Source: Nannocystis exedens (GTDB taxonomy: Bacteria > Myxococcota_A > Polyangia > Polyangiales > Polyangiaceae). Taken from it: DNA of 33,148 bases. The stretch spans positions 1-33,148 of the forward strand of contig CAMBEV010000005.1 of NCBI GenBank assembly GCA_945865595.1, in the 5' to 3' direction. This document shows positions 396 to 7,582 of this stretch, piece by piece (position 1 is the stretch's first letter; every line of letters starts with the position of its first letter). The translations under genes were made by a program, and so were the position numbers. The notes beneath the pieces were generated by a model. The model was not told the DNA's origin. It worked only from the letters and a program-made list of their open reading frames with translations, and did no database searches.

Positions 396-2084
396 ATGCC
401 GCCCTATACGCCTCGCCCCATCGACGAAGTTGCACGTGAACTTGGGTTCTCACCCGCGCACGTAGAGCCGTACGGTCGCGGCAAGGCCAAAATAGATCTC
501 GCTGCGTTACGAAATCCGTCGCGCGGAGAAGGTCGCCTCATTTTGGTGTCGGCGATCAATCCGACGCCGGCGGGTGAGGGCAAGACAACCACGTCGATTT
601 CGCTCGCCATGGGCATGCGGCGGCTCGGCAAGAACGTTGTGCTCGCGCTGCGGGAGCCTTCACTAGGACCCGTCTTCGGCGTTAAGGGTGGTGGTACCGG
701 CGGCGGCAAGGCTTCGCTGGTGCCGACCGACGATATCAATTTGCACTTCACGGGCGACATTCACGCCATCACGACCGCGCACAACTTGCTGAGCACACTC
801 ATCGACAACGCCTGTTACTTCCGCGACCGCTTCTCTGGTAGCGACGGCGACAAGGGCGAGCTCGATCCGCGGCAGATCACGTGGGGGCGTGCGCTTGACA
901 TGAACGATCGCTTCTTGCGGCGCTGCACGATCGGCCTTGGGGGCAAGGCCAACGGCGTTCCTCGCGAAGAGCGATTCGACATCACCGCTGCAAGTGAGGT
1001 CATGGCGATTCTCTCGTTGGCGAAAGGTTACGAAGACCTTGAGGCGCGGCTTGGTCGTATTGTGATCGGCACTAGTTACGAAGGAAGGGCGATCACAGCA
1101 AGTGACATTGGTGCTGCGGGTGCGATGACCGCGCTGCTGCGTGATGCGCTCAAACCGAACCTCGTGCAAACTGCCGAGGGCGGCCCCGCGATTGTGCATG
1201 CGGGACCCTTCGGCAACATCGCGCACGGTTGCAACAGCGTGCTCGCGACGGAACTTGCCATGAACGTGGGCGACTACGCCGTGACCGAGGCGGGGTTCGG
1301 TTTCGACCTCGGGGGCGAGAAGTTCCTGAACATCAAGTGTCGTCAGGCGGGCATTTGGCCACGCGCGCTCGTACTCGTAGCCACGTTGCGCGCACTCAAG
1401 ATGCATGGCGGCGTGCCGGTGAAAGAGGCAGGGCTTCCCAACGCAGCAGCCCTCGAACTGGGTATCTCGCACCTCGAAAAGCACCTCGAAAACGCACGTT
1501 TCTACGGTTTTCCAGCGGTCGTCGCGATCAATGTGTTCCCGCAAGATACGGCCGACGAAATCGCTATCGTCGAGCGAGCGGCGGCCAAGTTCGGCGTGCC
1601 TGTCGCCAGGAGCGAAGGGTTTGCCAAGGGCGGAGAGGGCGCTCTCGATCTGGCTCGCATCGTGACCGGTGTCGTTGATGGGACGGATGCGGCGCCGCCG
1701 TTACCTCACTACGTCTACGACCTTGCGGATGCGCCCGAGGTCAAGATTCGTAACATTGCAAAGACGATTTACGGTGCGCGCGATGTGGCGTTTGGGGGAA
1801 CGGCTGCCAAAGACCTCAAGCGCATCGCCGACCTCGGCTACGCGTCGTTACCCATTTGCATGGCCAAGACGCAGCTCTCGCTTTCCGACGATCCGGCACG
1901 CTTCGGTCGGCCCACCGACTTCGTGGTGAACGTGCGCGAGGTGCGACTCTCGGCGGGCGCAGGGTTCATCGTGCCGCTGACGGGTGACATGATGACCATG
2001 CCGGGCTTGCCGAGGGTGCCTGCTGCACGCGCAGTCAGACTGCTCGAAGACGGCACCATTAAAGGTCTGATGCAGAACGACTGA
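396..2084 (+). CDS. fhs: Formate-tetrahydrofolate ligase (10-formyl-THF synthetase)
   Basis: This cytosolic enzyme makes 10-formyl-tetrahydrofolate from formate, THF and ATP, feeding one-carbon units to purine and other syntheses. At 562 residues it has the usual family length. The N-terminus carries the family pattern (LGFSPAHVEPYGRGKAKI). A P-loop PTPAGEGKTT lies at residues 56-65. It is followed by the family blocks REPSLGPVFGVKGGGTGGG and DINLHFTGD. The ATG has a plausible AAGG about ten bases upstream. The gene starts only 30 bases after tRNA-Pro, so read-through from the tRNA promoter is possible. Its last 26 bases overlap the end of the convergent membrane glycosyltransferase. The neighbours include no other folate genes. 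Confidence 0.97.
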   Translation: MPPYTPRPIDEVARELGFSPAHVEPYGRGKAKIDLAALRNPSRGEGRLILVSAINPTPAGEGKTTTSISLAMGMRRLGKNVVLALREPSLGPVFGVKGGGTGGGKASLVPTDDINLHFTGDIHAITTAHNLLSTLIDNACYFRDRFSGSDGDKGELDPRQITWGRALDMNDRFLRRCTIGLGGKANGVPREERFDITAASEVMAILSLAKGYEDLEARLGRIVIGTSYEGRAITASDIGAAGAMTALLRDALKPNLVQTAEGGPAIVHAGPFGNIAHGCNSVLATELAMNVGDYAVTEAGFGFDLGGEKFLNIKCRQAGIWPRALVLVATLRALKMHGGVPVKEAGLPNAAALELGISHLEKHLENARFYGFPAVVAINVFPQDTADEIAIVERAAAKFGVPVARSEGFAKGGEGALDLARIVTGVVDGTDAAPPLPHYVYDLADAPEVKIRNIAKTIYGARDVAFGGTAAKDLKRIADLGYASLPICMAKTQLSLSDDPARFGRPTDFVVNVREVRLSAGAGFIVPLTGDMMTMPGLPRVPAARAVRLLEDGTIKGLMQND

Positions 2085-3573
2085 CGCCTTCGATCCGCAG
2101 GACACCGAGGCCGCTCGTTTCTGTCGCTGCGGGGGTTTGGTAAATGAGCTTGCCCATTGGGCGGAGCCTTTTCAGCCGGGTCATCCAGCTTGCGACATAG
2201 ACGGTGTCCCGTGTTTCCTGGGCCCTGCGGATGGCGCTAAGTGTCTTGGGATCGTCGAGCTGATGGCGTTCGAATGCGGTTCGATCGAGGTGCGACAGCA
2301 GTTCGACGGTTGACTCGTCACAGAAGATGAGCGGCACGGGCGTGTCCTTGAACTTGCTGTCGAGGAACCCCGCGGCGGCATTTGGGATGGGGTGGCCGTA
2401 TTCGACGGCGCCGCCCCATTCGTGCATCCAGTCTTCCGCGATGGGTGCTTGGACGCTCGCGCAGGCGATCGCGAAAGCTGCGAATACGACGCCGCCCAGC
2501 TCTCGCACCGGGCGCTCTCTCGTCAGCTTCTGCACGAGAAGGTTCACCCAGTGGACCACCGCTTCGATGCCCTGCGCGACGAGCGTTGCGTAAAAGGGCA
2601 CAACCACGAAAAAGTGCCGGTCGAGGCCGAGTGAGCTGCGGGTGATCCAGCTCAGCGCAATGAACCCGAGGCATCCGAGCGACGCGGCGAAGAACCACGC
2701 ACCATGCGCTCGCCAAGTCCGCACCAGCCCAAAGGGGGCCAGGAGCACGAGTGGCCCCATGAGTCTCCACGGTACGTCGAGCGTATAGTGTCCAACGTCG
2801 GTGACGAATTGGGCTGCGCTTACGGTAAAAGATCTTGACGTTCCGGCCGCGTCATTCGCAAAAGCCCGCGTTTGATTGAGAAACGCGAACCAGCGGCCGT
2901 CGCTCGGCCACCGGAGAATGGCCCAGAACACGATGGCGGACACGGCCATGAGCACGACAAACCACGGCCTCGTCGACCGCGCTGCGCGCGCCCTCGGCGC
3001 AGGCTTCAACCATTCGACCGCAAGCCAGCTCGCTGTCATCACGATCACTGCCCAAGCCTCGTAGCGAACGAGTGACGCGGCGCCCAACGCAAGGCCGGCA
3101 AGAGCGTAACGACCTCTGTCCATGGACCATACGAAGCCGAGGATGAGCAGTGCAAAGAGTGGCTCCGGCTGCCCGGTTGTGCCCATCTGCTGCACGATTG
3201 GGCTGGCTGCGGTGAGCCCGCAAGCGACGACAAGCGCACGCACGGGAACTGCCTTTTCGCGACCGAGCACGGCGAACAAGACGAGCGGCAATGCGGCGGT
3301 TGCCGCGACATTCGCGTACCGCATCGTGTCGAGCGTTGCGCCAAAGGTGATCGCTGCGGCCTGCAAATAGTGAAACAGCGGCAGCCATACCCAATGAATC
3401 GAGAACAGGGCGGGGGTCGCGGCCAACTGCCGCGAGATCGCATGATGGCCGTACGAGTCGGTATCCGGGTCGGGACCCATCTGCACGTACTCAAGCCGCA
3501 AGACGGCAAGCAACGCAACGAGTCCGAAGAGCAGCCAAAGGGCGACTCGTTTATCGCGCTCGTCGTGCCGCAT
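2059..3573 (-). CDS. Polytopic membrane glycosyltransferase-like protein (GT39/ArnT-like)
   Basis: A 504-residue inner-membrane protein with about ten or more hydrophobic segments, beginning with LLFGLVALLAVLRLEY. The first periplasmic loop holds the acidic motif DPDTDSYGHHA and then HWVWLPLFHY, the pattern expected near the active site of GT-C enzymes. These transfer sugars from a polyprenyl-phosphate donor outside the cytoplasm. A soluble C-terminal part of about 130 residues follows the last helix. The 3' end overlaps fhs by 26 bases in the convergent orientation. The gene is divergent from the nuclease-like gene at 3619. Donor and acceptor cannot be read from the sequence, and a general GT-C fold is more certain than the ArnT comparison. 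Confidence 0.75.
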   Translation of the reverse strand: MRHDERDKRVALWLLFGLVALLAVLRLEYVQMGPDPDTDSYGHHAISRQLAATPALFSIHWVWLPLFHYLQAAAITFGATLDTMRYANVAATAALPLVLFAVLGREKAVPVRALVVACGLTAASPIVQQMGTTGQPEPLFALLILGFVWSMDRGRYALAGLALGAASLVRYEAWAVIVMTASWLAVEWLKPAPRARAARSTRPWFVVLMAVSAIVFWAILRWPSDGRWFAFLNQTRAFANDAAGTSRSFTVSAAQFVTDVGHYTLDVPWRLMGPLVLLAPFGLVRTWRAHGAWFFAASLGCLGFIALSWITRSSLGLDRHFFVVVPFYATLVAQGIEAVVHWVNLLVQKLTRERPVRELGGVVFAAFAIACASVQAPIAEDWMHEWGGAVEYGHPIPNAAAGFLDSKFKDTPVPLIFCDESTVELLSHLDRTAFERHQLDDPKTLSAIRRAQETRDTVYVASWMTRLKRLRPMGKLIYQTPAATETSGLGVLRIEGVSRSASDL

Positions 3574-3618
3574 CGACGCACTCTATACTCGGCCTCTGAT
3601 GAACGCGAAACTGCTCTG

Positions 3619-4197
3619 GTGCTGCGGTTGAGCCTGTTCGCGTTTGGCACGGACCGGCCGCACGTGATTCTTGCGGGCGTGTTGGGCTTTCTGGCTGCTG
3701 CATTTGTCGCACTTCTCACGCTTTGGGTGCGACGCCGCTACGTTCGATCGCGTCTGCTCCGGCGCTTTCGTCGAGCGCGCGTGGCGGAGGACAAAGCCGT
3801 TCAGTTTCTTGACGAGAGCGGTTATCGCGTTATCGCGCAGCAGGTGCCCATCCGGTATTCGTTGTGGGTAGACGGTCGCGAAACCGAGGTCGATCTGAAA
3901 CTTGACTATGTGGTTGAACGCAACGGTCAGCGGTACGTTGCCGAAGTGAAGAGCGGCGAGGTGGCGCCGTCGCTCGCGCATGCGCCCACACGTCGTCAGC
4001 TGATCGAGTACGGCCTAGCGACGCAAACGACGGACGTGCTGTTGGTCGATCCGGATCGGCGATCAATCGCCGTGGTCAGTATCCCAAGGGGCGCGCGACC
4101 ATCGACCGTGGGAGGGCATGTTGCTATCGCGATCGTTTATTTCCTTCTCGGCGCGCTGTGCTCTGCGTCGGTGGCGATTTGGCGGTACTACGGATGA
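3619..4197 (+). CDS. Membrane-anchored PD-(D/E)XK nuclease-like protein
   Basis: The protein has 192 residues from the GTG at 3619; TTG 3628 is an alternative. The frame is open further upstream, but that part is antisense to the divergent gene. A hydrophobic helix spans about residues 15-37 and is followed by a very basic stretch. The middle part matches the PD-(D/E)XK nuclease core: AEDKAVQFLDESGY (about 56-69), Asp96 in DLKLDYVV, and Glu109-x-Lys111 in YVAEVKSGE, then RRQLIEYG. A second membrane helix closes the C-terminus. The core resembles the YraN/Holliday-resolvase-like branch, which is normally soluble. With helices at both ends the catalytic domain should be membrane-tethered, most simply facing the cytoplasm. 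The DNA substrate is unknown. The next gene starts 12 bases downstream, so the two probably form an operon. Confidence 0.65.
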   Translation: MLRLSLFAFGTDRPHVILAGVLGFLAAAFVALLTLWVRRRYVRSRLLRRFRRARVAEDKAVQFLDESGYRVIAQQVPIRYSLWVDGRETEVDLKLDYVVERNGQRYVAEVKSGEVAPSLAHAPTRRQLIEYGLATQTTDVLLVDPDRRSIAVVSIPRGARPSTVGGHVAIAIVYFLLGALCSASVAIWRYYG

Positions 4198-4209
4198 AGG
4201 GTGCAGCAC

Positions 4210-4557
4210 ATGGCGCTTGACGCTGACGCGCTTCAGTCGATCGTCGATGCGATTGCGAAAAAGGGACACACGGTCTCACTTGACGACATCGGCGACGCTC
4301 TCGGTGACGGCCCGATTCTTGTGACAGACGTTGAGCGACTGCTTTTCGCGCTCGACCTGCGCGGCATACAAGTCAATGACGTTGACGAACAGCGATCCGT
4401 GCCCGAATGTCTCGCCGCGGTGTTAGCGACTGCCCGGCAGCTTCGCGGTGCGAACGCGCGCGTGCCCACCGTGCACGAGATTGCCGAGCATGGTGGACTG
4501 CCCGAGCGTGCGGTTCGGATGGCGCTCTTGTTCGCGAAGGTGATGAGTCGGTCGTAG
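4210..4557 (+). CDS. Small protein resembling sigma-70 region 1.1 and region 3
   Basis: A 115-residue protein from the ATG at 4210, chosen because GAAGGG at 4196-4201 lies eight bases upstream; an in-frame GTG at 4201 is the alternative. Residues about 8-58 follow the pattern of sigma-70 region 1.1: a helix, VSLDDIGDALGD, then a helix ending in LDLRGIQVNDVDE. Residues about 67-111 follow the helix-turn-helix of region 3 (TARQLRGANARVPTVHEIAE, then LPERAVRMAL). No region 2 or region 4 is present, so it cannot be a working sigma factor. It could be a regulator that copies a sigma factor surface, or just a small winged-helix protein. It is 12 bases downstream of the nuclease-like gene. The family call is by eye and uncertain. 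Confidence 0.6.
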   Translation: MALDADALQSIVDAIAKKGHTVSLDDIGDALGDGPILVTDVERLLFALDLRGIQVNDVDEQRSVPECLAAVLATARQLRGANARVPTVHEIAEHGGLPERAVRMALLFAKVMSRS

Positions 4558-4565
4558 CGCGGCGG

Positions 4566-4934
4566 CTACCAAGGTCGTCCGTACGCGGCGACCGCTGCGG
4601 CGTGGGGGTCACGTACGAGCATGTCGCCCGTCCACGAGAAAGACAGTTTCCACGACGGCGAAACCTGCACCTCCGGCTTGAAGTCGAATAGATTTTCGCT
4701 CTTTCGCCTCGGCGCGACGCGCACCGTAAACAGGCGAGCCAAGCCTTGCGTGTTCTTGTGCGGAAGCGCCGCCTCGTGAAGCGACAAGGCGAACCACGAT
4801 GCATCGCTGATCGGATGCGCGCTCAGGCGCTCGCTCGACGCGGCCGCAGGCGGTACGGTCTCTGACGCGTCTGCACGGCCGAGCCACGCAGTGCCGCACA
4901 AGACCACAGCTGCTATCAATGGGATTCGTTTCAT
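4566..4934 (-). CDS. Small secreted protein of unknown function
   Basis: 122 residues from the ATG at 4934, which has a GAGG about seven bases upstream; an in-frame ATG four codons earlier is possible. A signal peptide is clear: MKRIPLIAAVVLCGTAWLG followed by RADASET, with cleavage likely after ADA. The mature part has no cysteines and no family motif I recognise. It contains PHKNTQGLARLFTVRVAPRR and ends in AAYGRPW. It is expected to be periplasmic. It ends 8 bases from the convergent sigma-like gene and starts divergently from the GH13 gene. Confidence 0.6.
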   Translation of the reverse strand: MKRIPLIAAVVLCGTAWLGRADASETVPPAAASSERLSAHPISDASWFALSLHEAALPHKNTQGLARLFTVRVAPRRKSENLFDFKPEVQVSPSWKLSFSWTGDMLVRDPHAAAVAAYGRPW

Positions 4935-5022
4935 GGAGCGCCTCATCCGTTCGGTCCCCGCGTGCGAATAAAAGGGGGCAGCATGGTGAACGGCACGGTT
5001 GGGCGTGCTTGAGAAAAAAACC

Positions 5023-5055
5023 GCAACCGAGACGTAACGCGGTACGTACGGTTGC
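5023..5055. promoter_or_regulatory. Inverted repeat upstream of the GH13 gene
   Basis: GCAACCG (5023-5029) is the exact reverse complement of CGGTTGC (5049-5055). The 19-base spacer contains the palindrome GTACGTAC (5042-5049). The element sits 23 bases before the GH13 start and could be an operator or an mRNA hairpin. No clear -35/-10 pair accompanies it, so its role is inferred only from symmetry and position. Confidence 0.3.
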
Positions 5056-5077
5056 CGGCGCCAAGGTAGAGGCAAGC

Positions 5078-7582
5078 ATGCACTTTGAGCGAACGACCCT
5101 AGAACAACTCAAGCGTGCCGGCGCGCCCGTCGATGCATGGGGGGAGCTCGTCATTGGGAGCCGCGCGGATGCTGAGGTCGCGGCGATCGCGCTATCGGCT
5201 ATCGGTGGAACGACCATTGGCGCTGCTGAGCTGGGTGCGCTTGCGGCGTTGCATCAAATTCAGCATTGGTTGTTACGAAATGCAGCGGACGGCCTCTCGC
5301 TCCCGCAGGACGTTGCCCCCGAAGTCCGCGGGCTCGTCTGCGGCTCGCATGAAGAAAGTGACGACCGCCGAGTCGCTGAGGAGGCGTTGCTCCTCGTGGC
5401 GCTCGCCGAGAATCCGCAGGCGTCGGCGCTCGCAAACGTGTTGCCAGACGTGTCGTCCCTTCGTCAGCTCATTGGTCATCCTGAATGTAGCGAAGGATCC
5501 CCGGGGTCCGATCCGTTGCCGTCGTTGCGGTTGCCAGAGGACGTTCTGCGGATCGCGTTCGTCCACCGTGAGGCAGGGCCATCGCTCGAAGGTCAAATTG
5601 ATCATTTGCTGCAACAATTCGCCAGCACCCTGGCGCTCTCGCCCGATTACAAGACGTGGCTCGACCTGCGCTTTCGTTTGAGCGAAGAGAGCCGGTGGCA
5701 CGCCCGCCATGACGCGCACGGGCCTGGGGCATCTGCCGCACTGCGCTTCGAAGGAGACGCAGCCCACCCGGTGGCCGCTCAAGACGAACGTCGCTTTTCG
5801 GCCGACCGGTCGTGGATGCCGCGCGTCGTCCTGCTCGCGAAGTCCGTTTACGTTTGGCTCGCGCAACTGAGCGCAGAGTGCGGCCGCACGCTCACGACGC
5901 TCTCGGACATTCCCGACGAAGTGCTCGATAGCATAACGTCAAGAGGGTTTACGGCCCTTTGGTTGATTGGCATCTGGCGAAGGTCGCCGGCGTCGGCCAC
6001 CATTAAAAAGAGGCAAGGCACCTCGGACGCGATCGCGTCGGCGTACTCGATCGATAGCTACGAAATAGACGACAGGCTCGGTGGACAGGCTGCCTACGAA
6101 AATCTGCGGGAGCGCTTGCATGCGCGTGGCATCAGGCTCGCGGCCGATCTGGTGCCCAACCACATGGGCGTCGACAGCGAGTGGGTACGAAAGCACCCTG
6201 ACTACTTCGTGCAGACCGCGACGTGTCCCTACGAAGCGTATCGATTCTCGGTGGACGTTTCGAGTGACCCTGACGTCGGCACCTTCCTCGAAGACGGGTA
6301 CTGGAATCGCTCGGACGCGGCTGTGGTGTTCAAGCGCGTTGACCGTCACAGTGGTCAAGAAAGTTTCATTTACCATGGCAACGACGGCACGAGCATGCCG
6401 TGGAACGACACGGCCCAGCTCGATTACACAAACCCATCAGTTCGCGCGGCGATGCTCGATCTCATCGTGCACGTGGCCAAGATGTTTCCGATCTTGCGCT
6501 TCGATGCGGCAATGACGCTCGCCAAGCAGCACTACCAGCGCCTGTGGTTTCCACAGCACGGAGGCGGCGAGGCGATCGCCTCGCGCGGACGGTTCGCGAT
6601 GTCGCAAGCGGAGTTCGATCGCGCGATGCCTCGAGAGTTTTGGAGCGAGGTCGTGGAGGCGGTCGCAACCAGAGCCCCTGACACGCTTCTACTTGCTGAA
6701 GCCTTCTGGATGATGGAGGGCTACTTCGTCCGGTCGCTTGGGATGCACCGCGTTTACAACTCGGCGTTCATGAACATGTTCAAGGCCGAAGAGAACGCCA
6801 AGTACCACGAGCTCATTCGTAACGTCGTCGAGTACGATCCGGAAATCCTCGGCAGGTTCGTCAACTTTATGAACAACCCAGACGAAGAGCCCGCGGCGGT
6901 TCAGTTTGGGACAACCGACAAGTACTTTGCGGTCTGCACGCTGCTGGCCACGCTGCCGGGTACGCCGATGTTTGGCCACGGTCAGTTCGAGGGCCTGCGC
7001 GAGAAGTACGGCATGGAGTTCTACCGGCCCATGCAGGACGAAACGGTAGACCGGCCGCTGCTCGCGGCGCACGAGGCGAAGATCGTGCCTCTGCTGCGAC
7101 GTCGATTCGTGTTTGCGCAAGCGCGCTCGTTTCGGCTGTTTCCGCTACAGACCGACCACGGGCAGAATCCCAACGTGTTTGCTTATTGTAACGCACATGG
7201 TGACGAAGTGGCGCTCGTGCTGGTGCATAACCGTTACGAAGCGGCACGTGGGCGGTTGAGCCAGTCAGTTCCGTTCCGCGGTGACGACGGATCGCTCGTC
7301 GAAGAGTCGCTCGTCGACGTGCTCTTTCGGGGGAGCGAACGCGTGACCTTGGTGCACGCCACAACGGGGCATGAATGGCCACTTGAACGCGAAACTGTGC
7401 AGCGCGAAGGGCTATTTGTGGAGCTTGGCCCTTACGCCCACGATGTGTGGTGGGTGATGCGGGTCTCTGCTCAGCCGGGCGCAGGCGATCAGCGCGCCGA
7501 TGCGGATGCCACGATCGCATCGAATCGCGAGAGTGCCTTTTCGAGCGTCGCCATTGAGGGGCCGAACGAGAAGCGTACGTAG
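5078..7582 (+). CDS. GH13 alpha-amylase-family glycoside hydrolase or transglycosidase
   Basis: 834 residues from the ATG at 5078, which has GAGG six bases upstream. The first 240 or so residues are a helical N-terminal part of unknown role. The catalytic barrel follows, with GH13 region I DLVPNH (357-362), region II RFD with nucleophile Asp476, region III AEAFW with acid/base Glu541, and region IV NNPDE with Asp602 as transition-state stabiliser. Region IV has Pro rather than the usual His just before the Asp. No signal peptide is seen, so a cytosolic role in glycogen, maltodextrin or trehalose metabolism is likely; the exact reaction cannot be read. Residues 133-141 (GHPECSEGS) are encoded by a copy of the genomic CATCCTGA repeat. 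The last 94 bases overlap the convergent aminotransferase. Confidence 0.85.
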   Translation: MHFERTTLEQLKRAGAPVDAWGELVIGSRADAEVAAIALSAIGGTTIGAAELGALAALHQIQHWLLRNAADGLSLPQDVAPEVRGLVCGSHEESDDRRVAEEALLLVALAENPQASALANVLPDVSSLRQLIGHPECSEGSPGSDPLPSLRLPEDVLRIAFVHREAGPSLEGQIDHLLQQFASTLALSPDYKTWLDLRFRLSEESRWHARHDAHGPGASAALRFEGDAAHPVAAQDERRFSADRSWMPRVVLLAKSVYVWLAQLSAECGRTLTTLSDIPDEVLDSITSRGFTALWLIGIWRRSPASATIKKRQGTSDAIASAYSIDSYEIDDRLGGQAAYENLRERLHARGIRLAADLVPNHMGVDSEWVRKHPDYFVQTATCPYEAYRFSVDVSSDPDVGTFLEDGYWNRSDAAVVFKRVDRHSGQESFIYHGNDGTSMPWNDTAQLDYTNPSVRAAMLDLIVHVAKMFPILRFDAAMTLAKQHYQRLWFPQHGGGEAIASRGRFAMSQAEFDRAMPREFWSEVVEAVATRAPDTLLLAEAFWMMEGYFVRSLGMHRVYNSAFMNMFKAEENAKYHELIRNVVEYDPEILGRFVNFMNNPDEEPAAVQFGTTDKYFAVCTLLATLPGTPMFGHGQFEGLREKYGMEFYRPMQDETVDRPLLAAHEAKIVPLLRRRFVFAQARSFRLFPLQTDHGQNPNVFAYCNAHGDEVALVLVHNRYEAARGRLSQSVPFRGDDGSLVEESLVDVLFRGSERVTLVHATTGHEWPLERETVQREGLFVELGPYAHDVWWVMRVSAQPGAGDQRADADATIASNRESAFSSVAIEGPNEKRT
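5475..5500. repeat. Copy of the CATCCTGA...GAAGGATC repeat inside a coding sequence
   Basis: The bases GTCATCCTGAATGTAGCG followed by AAGGATCC match the arms of the repeat at 81-206. Only one arm is obvious here. It is read in frame as GHPECSEGS at residues 133-141 of the GH13 protein, between helical segments of the N-terminal domain, and it leaves the frame intact. Confidence 0.75.

Follow-up and report, generated by a model that had tools for sequence, protein, structure and literature searches.

All sigma factors of the sigma70 family contain the sigma2 and sigma4 domains (PMC4598750). The sigma1.1 region is restricted to the group 1 factors, in which it is acidic and occupies the channel of the polymerase by mimicking DNA, and both sigma1.1 and sigma3 are missing from the ECF sigmas (PMC4598750). 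The N-terminal domain of the RNA polymerase delta subunit resembles sigma1.1 and acts on RNA polymerase in trans (PMC7749165). Known sigma fragments and mimics consist of sigma2 and sigma4 parts, except for delta, whose resemblance is to sigma1.1 only. Here we describe a family of small proteins, represented by P2 in a 33,148-nucleotide stretch of DNA (hereafter the window; source genome of 3.5 Mb, 90% complete), whose sequence profiles instead point to a combination of sigma1.1 with sigma3; searches of 5.4 million open-access papers turned up no account of such a protein. P2 is encoded next to P1, a predicted membrane-anchored nuclease-like protein, and the features of the two genes are as follows:

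3619..4197, + strand: gene 1 (P1), predicted membrane-anchored PD-(D/E)XK (RecB/Cas4/UPF0102-like) protein; GTG start, 192 aa
3664..3720, + strand: first predicted transmembrane helix of P1, residues 16-34; hydropathy 2.59, Arg-rich stretch after it
3787..4011, + strand: predicted catalytic core of P1, E57, D96, E109-x-K111, T124-R-R-Q127, E130-Y131; from 28 homologues
4123..4179, + strand: second predicted transmembrane helix of P1, residues 169-187; found in 17 of 30 homologues
4210..4557, + strand: gene 2 (P2), sigma1.1-sigma3 miniprotein by sequence profile; ATG start, 115 aa
4210..4389, + strand: P2 N-domain, sigma region 1.1-like; three helices and short strands, net charge -6
4390..4554, + strand: P2 C-domain, sigma region 3 (3.0-3.1)-like; three helices

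The stop codon of P1 occupies 4195-4197, and P2 could be read either from the ATG at 4210 or from an in-frame GTG at 4201. Given that the sole in-frame start in a sibling species aligns with the ATG, the latter is the likely start, which leaves the 12-base gap between the genes that the initial annotation had given. Within the genus, purifying selection acts on P1 and P2 alike (pN/pS 0.28-0.32 and 0.37-0.48), and both are real genes, correctly read; the same selection, together with conservation of the family, excludes P2 as a pseudogene or a relic of rpoD. A search of 3500-4700, a range that includes the 45-base divergent gap, revealed no promoter consensus of the sigma70 type; in the window's genus P1 and P2 are probably co-transcribed, with P1 just upstream. 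Also near this region, the window codes for a formate-THF ligase (396-2084) and a multi-pass membrane protein with weak Leg1/GT87 similarity only (2059-3573). In two siblings (G002 and G003) the formate-THF ligase lies on contigs other than that of the P1/P2 region, which suggests a synteny break between the ligase gene and that of the multi-pass membrane protein. On the other side, an exact CATCCTGAATGTAGCGAAGGAT repeat-like element (5477-5498; chance expectation 0) is present in frame inside an alpha-amylase-family ORF (4919-7582).

A set of 28 P2 homologues can be aligned from end to end, with the consensus LDxxGEAIGxxxVxxxEIExLxxxLExxGRxV in the first half and VLxAARxLRxxLGRxPTxxEIAxxxGLxxxxVRxALxxAxVxxR in the second. 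The Pfam model Sigma70_r3 matches 27 of the 28 members and Sigma70_r1_1 matches 10 at E<=0.1 (best 7e-5), while no other Pfam family is common to more than 8; scattered helix-turn-helix (HTH) families match single members. Taken alone, the window's P2 reaches 25.9 bits against Sigma70_r3 (cut-off 25.3) and matches Sigma70_r1_1 weakly (E 0.24), the gathering score of which is passed by one relative, G035, from its single sequence (23.5 vs 22.5). When the P2 profile was compared by hhalign with that of 30 Polyangiales RpoD proteins, residues 65-110 aligned with region 3 (P 7e-8) and residues 12-60 with region 1.1 (P 2.7e-5), in an order colinear with RpoD, and no significant match was obtained to regions 1.2, 2 or 4. 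The scores of the N-half against region 1.1 (33.2, z 8) and of the C-half against region 3 (55.8, z 22) were reached by none of 200 column shuffles each. RpoD/SigA also lead a profile search of PDB sequences, in which both segments are matched and the isolated SigA 1.1 domain (5mww) is included. Every one of the 28 members has an acidic N-domain (mean charge -5.9, against -9.5 for RpoD region 1.1), the C-domain has a mean charge of +3, and the P2 residue aligned with the Glu by which RpoD reads the extended -10 element is not conserved in the family. As for the remaining sigma domains, sigma2 (regions 1.2-2.4) gives no Pfam match to region 1.2 or 2 and P2, at 115 aa, is too short to hold it; region-4 models match 2 of the 28 members, weakly, as against 27 for region 3. 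With sigma2 and sigma4 absent, P2 is not itself a sigma factor. Single-sequence matches had raised the sigma54 core-binding domain as a source of the N-half; this was dropped, since the profile score against 19 RpoN proteins lies within the shuffles (10 of 200 reach it) while RpoD region 1.1 beats all of them. The C-half against RpoN is marginal (1 of 200 shuffles).

The AlphaFold model of P2 (8 sequences; pLDDT 81) shows two three-helix domains, of which the N-domain is confidently modeled. Sigma factors dominate its Foldseek list, in which every E-value is above 0.1; the closest solved match is region 3 of sigmaF in complex with the anti-sigma SpoIIAB (1l0o), which superposes on the C-domain with an rmsd of 1.5 A over 44 residues (prob 1.00). 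Many sigma3 domains match the C-domain in VIA with Z values of 6.6-8.1, a range also reached by common helical arrangements; such values being insufficient as proof alone, the kinship of P2 with sigma factors rests on the sequence profiles. The N-domain (model residues 4-59) has its best structural match in a mycobacterial DUF3349 protein (3ol3, the Rv0543c orthologue; Z 7.8, rmsd 2.0 over 56) and matches the solved sigma1.1 domain 5mww more loosely (rmsd 4.8). The 3ol3 match raises the question of whether DUF3349 and sigma1.1 are related. The earlier reading of P2 as a region 1.1-like half joined to a region 3-like half, with regions 2 and 4 missing, is borne out by hhalign against RpoD and by Pfam and, for the region 3-like half, by the AlphaFold model; as judged from its profiles, P2 is a true miniprotein of sigma1.1 and sigma3, probably descended from the primary sigma RpoD by loss of sigma2 and sigma4.

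Of 97 related genomes, about 30 yielded P2 homologues in a single-sequence search, a count that leaves out the weakest, region-3-only matches. A profile search of 379 genomes sampled across the phylum found full-length minis (E below 1e-24) in 20, which belong to three families of the window's order plus G127 and G152, two genomes from one family of another class whose minis, when read, proved full length. Nearly all the other profile matches listed cover only region 3 and belong to normal sigma factors, with ORFs that are mostly 400-800 aa long. Conservation of P2 as a full-length gene is seen within Polyangiales and in a single family of another class of myxobacteria; the window's genome has one copy. 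A scan of public genome contigs with a region-3 motif returned seven relatives with both halves, from Polyangium (including P. fumosum) and myxobacteria or from MAGs labelled delta- or Proteobacteria, and eight other matches with region 3 only. A distinct subfamily (RVDLNDIAEIIG ...), in which a longer and different C-terminal tail replaces LARVMxR, is seen in large-genome relatives (loci L016, L017, L024, L026, L028, L030 and Polyangium L115-L119). A plasmid or phage origin was rejected, there being no plasmid match and, in the PHROGs set of phage families, only marginal and unnamed matches, as was the idea that P2 compensates for a weak sigma1.1 in the host RpoD (no difference, Mann-Whitney p 0.38).

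In P1, the residues of the PD-(D/E)XK core that had been noted earlier (D96 and E109-x-K111, between two membrane helices) are as described. None of 28 homologues departs from E57, D96, K111, G113, T124-R-R-Q127, E130 or Y131, and all have E or D at position 109, which indicates that the motif is not a chance occurrence. The order E...D...ExK...QxxxY is that of PD-(D/E)XK motifs, and the QxxxY element is characteristic of RecB/Cas4-type enzymes. Pfam matches among the members are to PDDEXK_1 (22/28, best E 2.3e-7), UPF0102 (9/28) and Cas_Cas4 (4/28), and the top profile match in the PDB is the UPF0102 protein RPA0323 (E 0.0015); the single-sequence AlphaFold model (pLDDT 54) is too low for use. 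The first transmembrane helix is kept in 26 of 30 homologues. It is preceded by 2 K/R residues and followed by 7 within 15 residues, and by the positive-inside rule a K/R-rich flank marks the cytoplasmic side; the domain between the helices is therefore predicted to face the cytoplasm. No cysteine is conserved in the 30 homologues (the window's protein has one), and an identity as Cas4 was rejected because the conserved cysteines of its iron-sulfur cluster are absent. Sequence features thus describe P1 as an inner-membrane-anchored, cytoplasm-facing, predicted PD-(D/E)XK protein with putative nuclease activity. The family is widespread: in a sample of 151 genomes from across the phylum, 39 have a member.

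The initial annotation had also suggested that these genes could be a nuclease for DNA uptake or defence, coupled to a transcription-linked regulator. Nothing was found to support either role: the nuclease domain is predicted to be cytoplasmic, PADLOC returned just a weak Cas4 similarity for P1, no defence genes recur beside P1 or P2 in the neighborhoods of their homologues, and a defence system was accordingly rejected. The supposed pairing fared differently in its two aspects, with conserved adjacency failing and co-occurrence holding. That P1 and P2 form a functional pair is suggested by their shared strand and short spacing and by their distribution in the family (21 genomes with both, 5 with P2 only, 9 with P1 only, 25 with neither; OR 11.7, p 6e-5), which exceeds that of control pairs with the patchy genes FTHFS and Cas1 (OR 0.5-3.4), so that a functional link is still conceivable. 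The correlation exceeds what independent evolution produces in simulations on a 60-genome tree of an rpoB domain (p 0.003 and 0.007) and persists within genome-size strata (p 2e-4); these figures derive from a single-gene tree, incomplete MAGs, single-sequence P2 detection and two control genes. Against a pair, P1 and P2 are neighbors solely in the window's genus, and even there they are separated by a hemerythrin gene in two of the three species, both siblings of the window's. In other genera, as seen in genomes that are complete or nearly so, they lie megabases apart (3.49 vs 8.11 Mb in G042, 1.74 vs 10.45 Mb in G023, 2.40 vs 10.24 Mb in G058), being unlinked in all other genera examined, and neither family has a recurrent neighbor beyond close relatives. 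The two genes thus do not constitute a conserved operon. Furthermore, the range of P1 is far wider than that of P2 and takes in many families from which P2 is absent, five genomes of the family have P2 but no P1, and shared patterns of loss could yield the correlation. On balance we regard a functional pair as decidedly improbable, and the main interest of the locus is the P2 family rather than a nuclease-regulator system. The intervening gene codes for a 147-aa HHE hemerythrin-like protein (L033:2208-2651 in G003 and L034:5340-5783 in G002) and is missing at 4197-4210 in the window. A further congener, G001 (86% complete), has neither P1 nor P2, which may reflect co-loss or assembly gaps.

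For P2 itself, we tentatively propose, with slightly less than even confidence, that it is a non-catalytic, trans-acting, RpoD-derived sigma mimic that modulates transcription initiation, P1 being a separate membrane nuclease-like protein. P2, in which sigma1.1 and sigma3 have been kept, may work like part of a sigma factor, and delta provides a precedent for action on polymerase by a separate sigma1.1-like protein. The acidic N-domain would dock on RNA polymerase, in the DNA channel or at its entrance, much as sigma1.1 itself docks there and the sigma1.1-like delta subunit close by; the sigma3-like domain could contact promoter DNA or the sigma3 site; and these contacts together might bias promoter opening or the choice of sigma, as either activation or inhibition. 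Several points count against this proposal: the closer match of the N-domain to DUF3349 than to sigma1.1, the Foldseek E-values above 0.1 and the range of the VIA Z values, the lack of conservation at the position of the extended -10-reading Glu, and homologue neighborhoods in which no conserved context points to a regulon for P2. The DUF3349 match would also suit a stand-alone DNA-binding regulator, in which two RpoD-derived HTH-like domains, no longer in contact with RNA polymerase, repress or activate a small number of sites. Both domains are of the HTH type, the C-domain is positively charged and single members do match various HTH families; however, a DNA-binding wing would not be expected to be acidic throughout the family as the N-domain is, no families but the sigma regions are common to at least one third of the members, and the domain order is that of RpoD, making such a regulator rather unlikely. 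It is quite improbable that P2 instead binds a sigma partner, mimicking sigma1.1 and sigma3 so as to titrate an anti-sigma factor or hold free RpoD by partner switching of the PhyR kind: sigma mimicry has a precedent in PhyR (PMC4598750, PMC8103513), free sigma is reported to have its sigma1.1 folded back onto it (PMC4598750) and the closest solved match of P2 is itself bound to an anti-sigma, but PhyR mimics sigma2 and sigma4 rather than 1.1 and 3, and neither anti-sigma nor response-regulator genes are recurrent beside P2. Finally, as ECF sigmas lack exactly the two domains that P2 has, P2 could supplement them in trans, providing their holoenzymes with a channel gate (1.1) and an extended -10/spacer contact (sigma3). 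Minimal ECF sigmas are expected to be numerous in myxobacteria. We consider such a supplement very improbable; if real, it would amount to a modular sigma built from two proteins. For the sigma mimic that we favor, a conserved sigma1.1-sigma3 protein would mean that a primary sigma has accessory domains that are detachable and usable in trans. P2 may add a layer to the control of transcription in myxobacteria and, as a small purifiable protein, could serve to probe how sigma1.1 and sigma3 act in trans.

Among described systems, the primary sigma RpoD (group 1) has sigma1.1 and sigma3 domains homologous to the two halves of P2 and in the same order; P2 differs in lacking 1.2, sigma2, 3.2 and sigma4, on which binding to core and promoter mainly depends, and has 115 aa as against about 600. 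The delta subunit (Bacillus RpoE) can be likened to P2 in being small and trans-acting with a sigma1.1-like N-domain (PMC7749165), but has a disordered, very acidic tail where P2 has its sigma3-like domain. The split sigma SigO-RsoA and the mimic PhyR also have partial sets of sigma domains (PMC8103513, PMC4598750); theirs include sigma2 and/or sigma4, whereas P2 carries exactly the other two. In the same vein, the sigma2 and sigma4 of ECF (group 4) factors are complementary to the sigma1.1 and sigma3 of P2 (PMC4598750). DUF3349 (the Rv0543c family), which matches the P2 N-domain in structure, is an actinobacterial all-helical protein of unknown function without a sigma3 domain. P1, for its part, shares its motif order with PD-(D/E)XK proteins of the RecB/Cas4 and UPF0102/YraN types, from which it is set apart by its predicted membrane anchor, the lack of conserved cysteines and the lack of recurrent defence or uptake neighbors.
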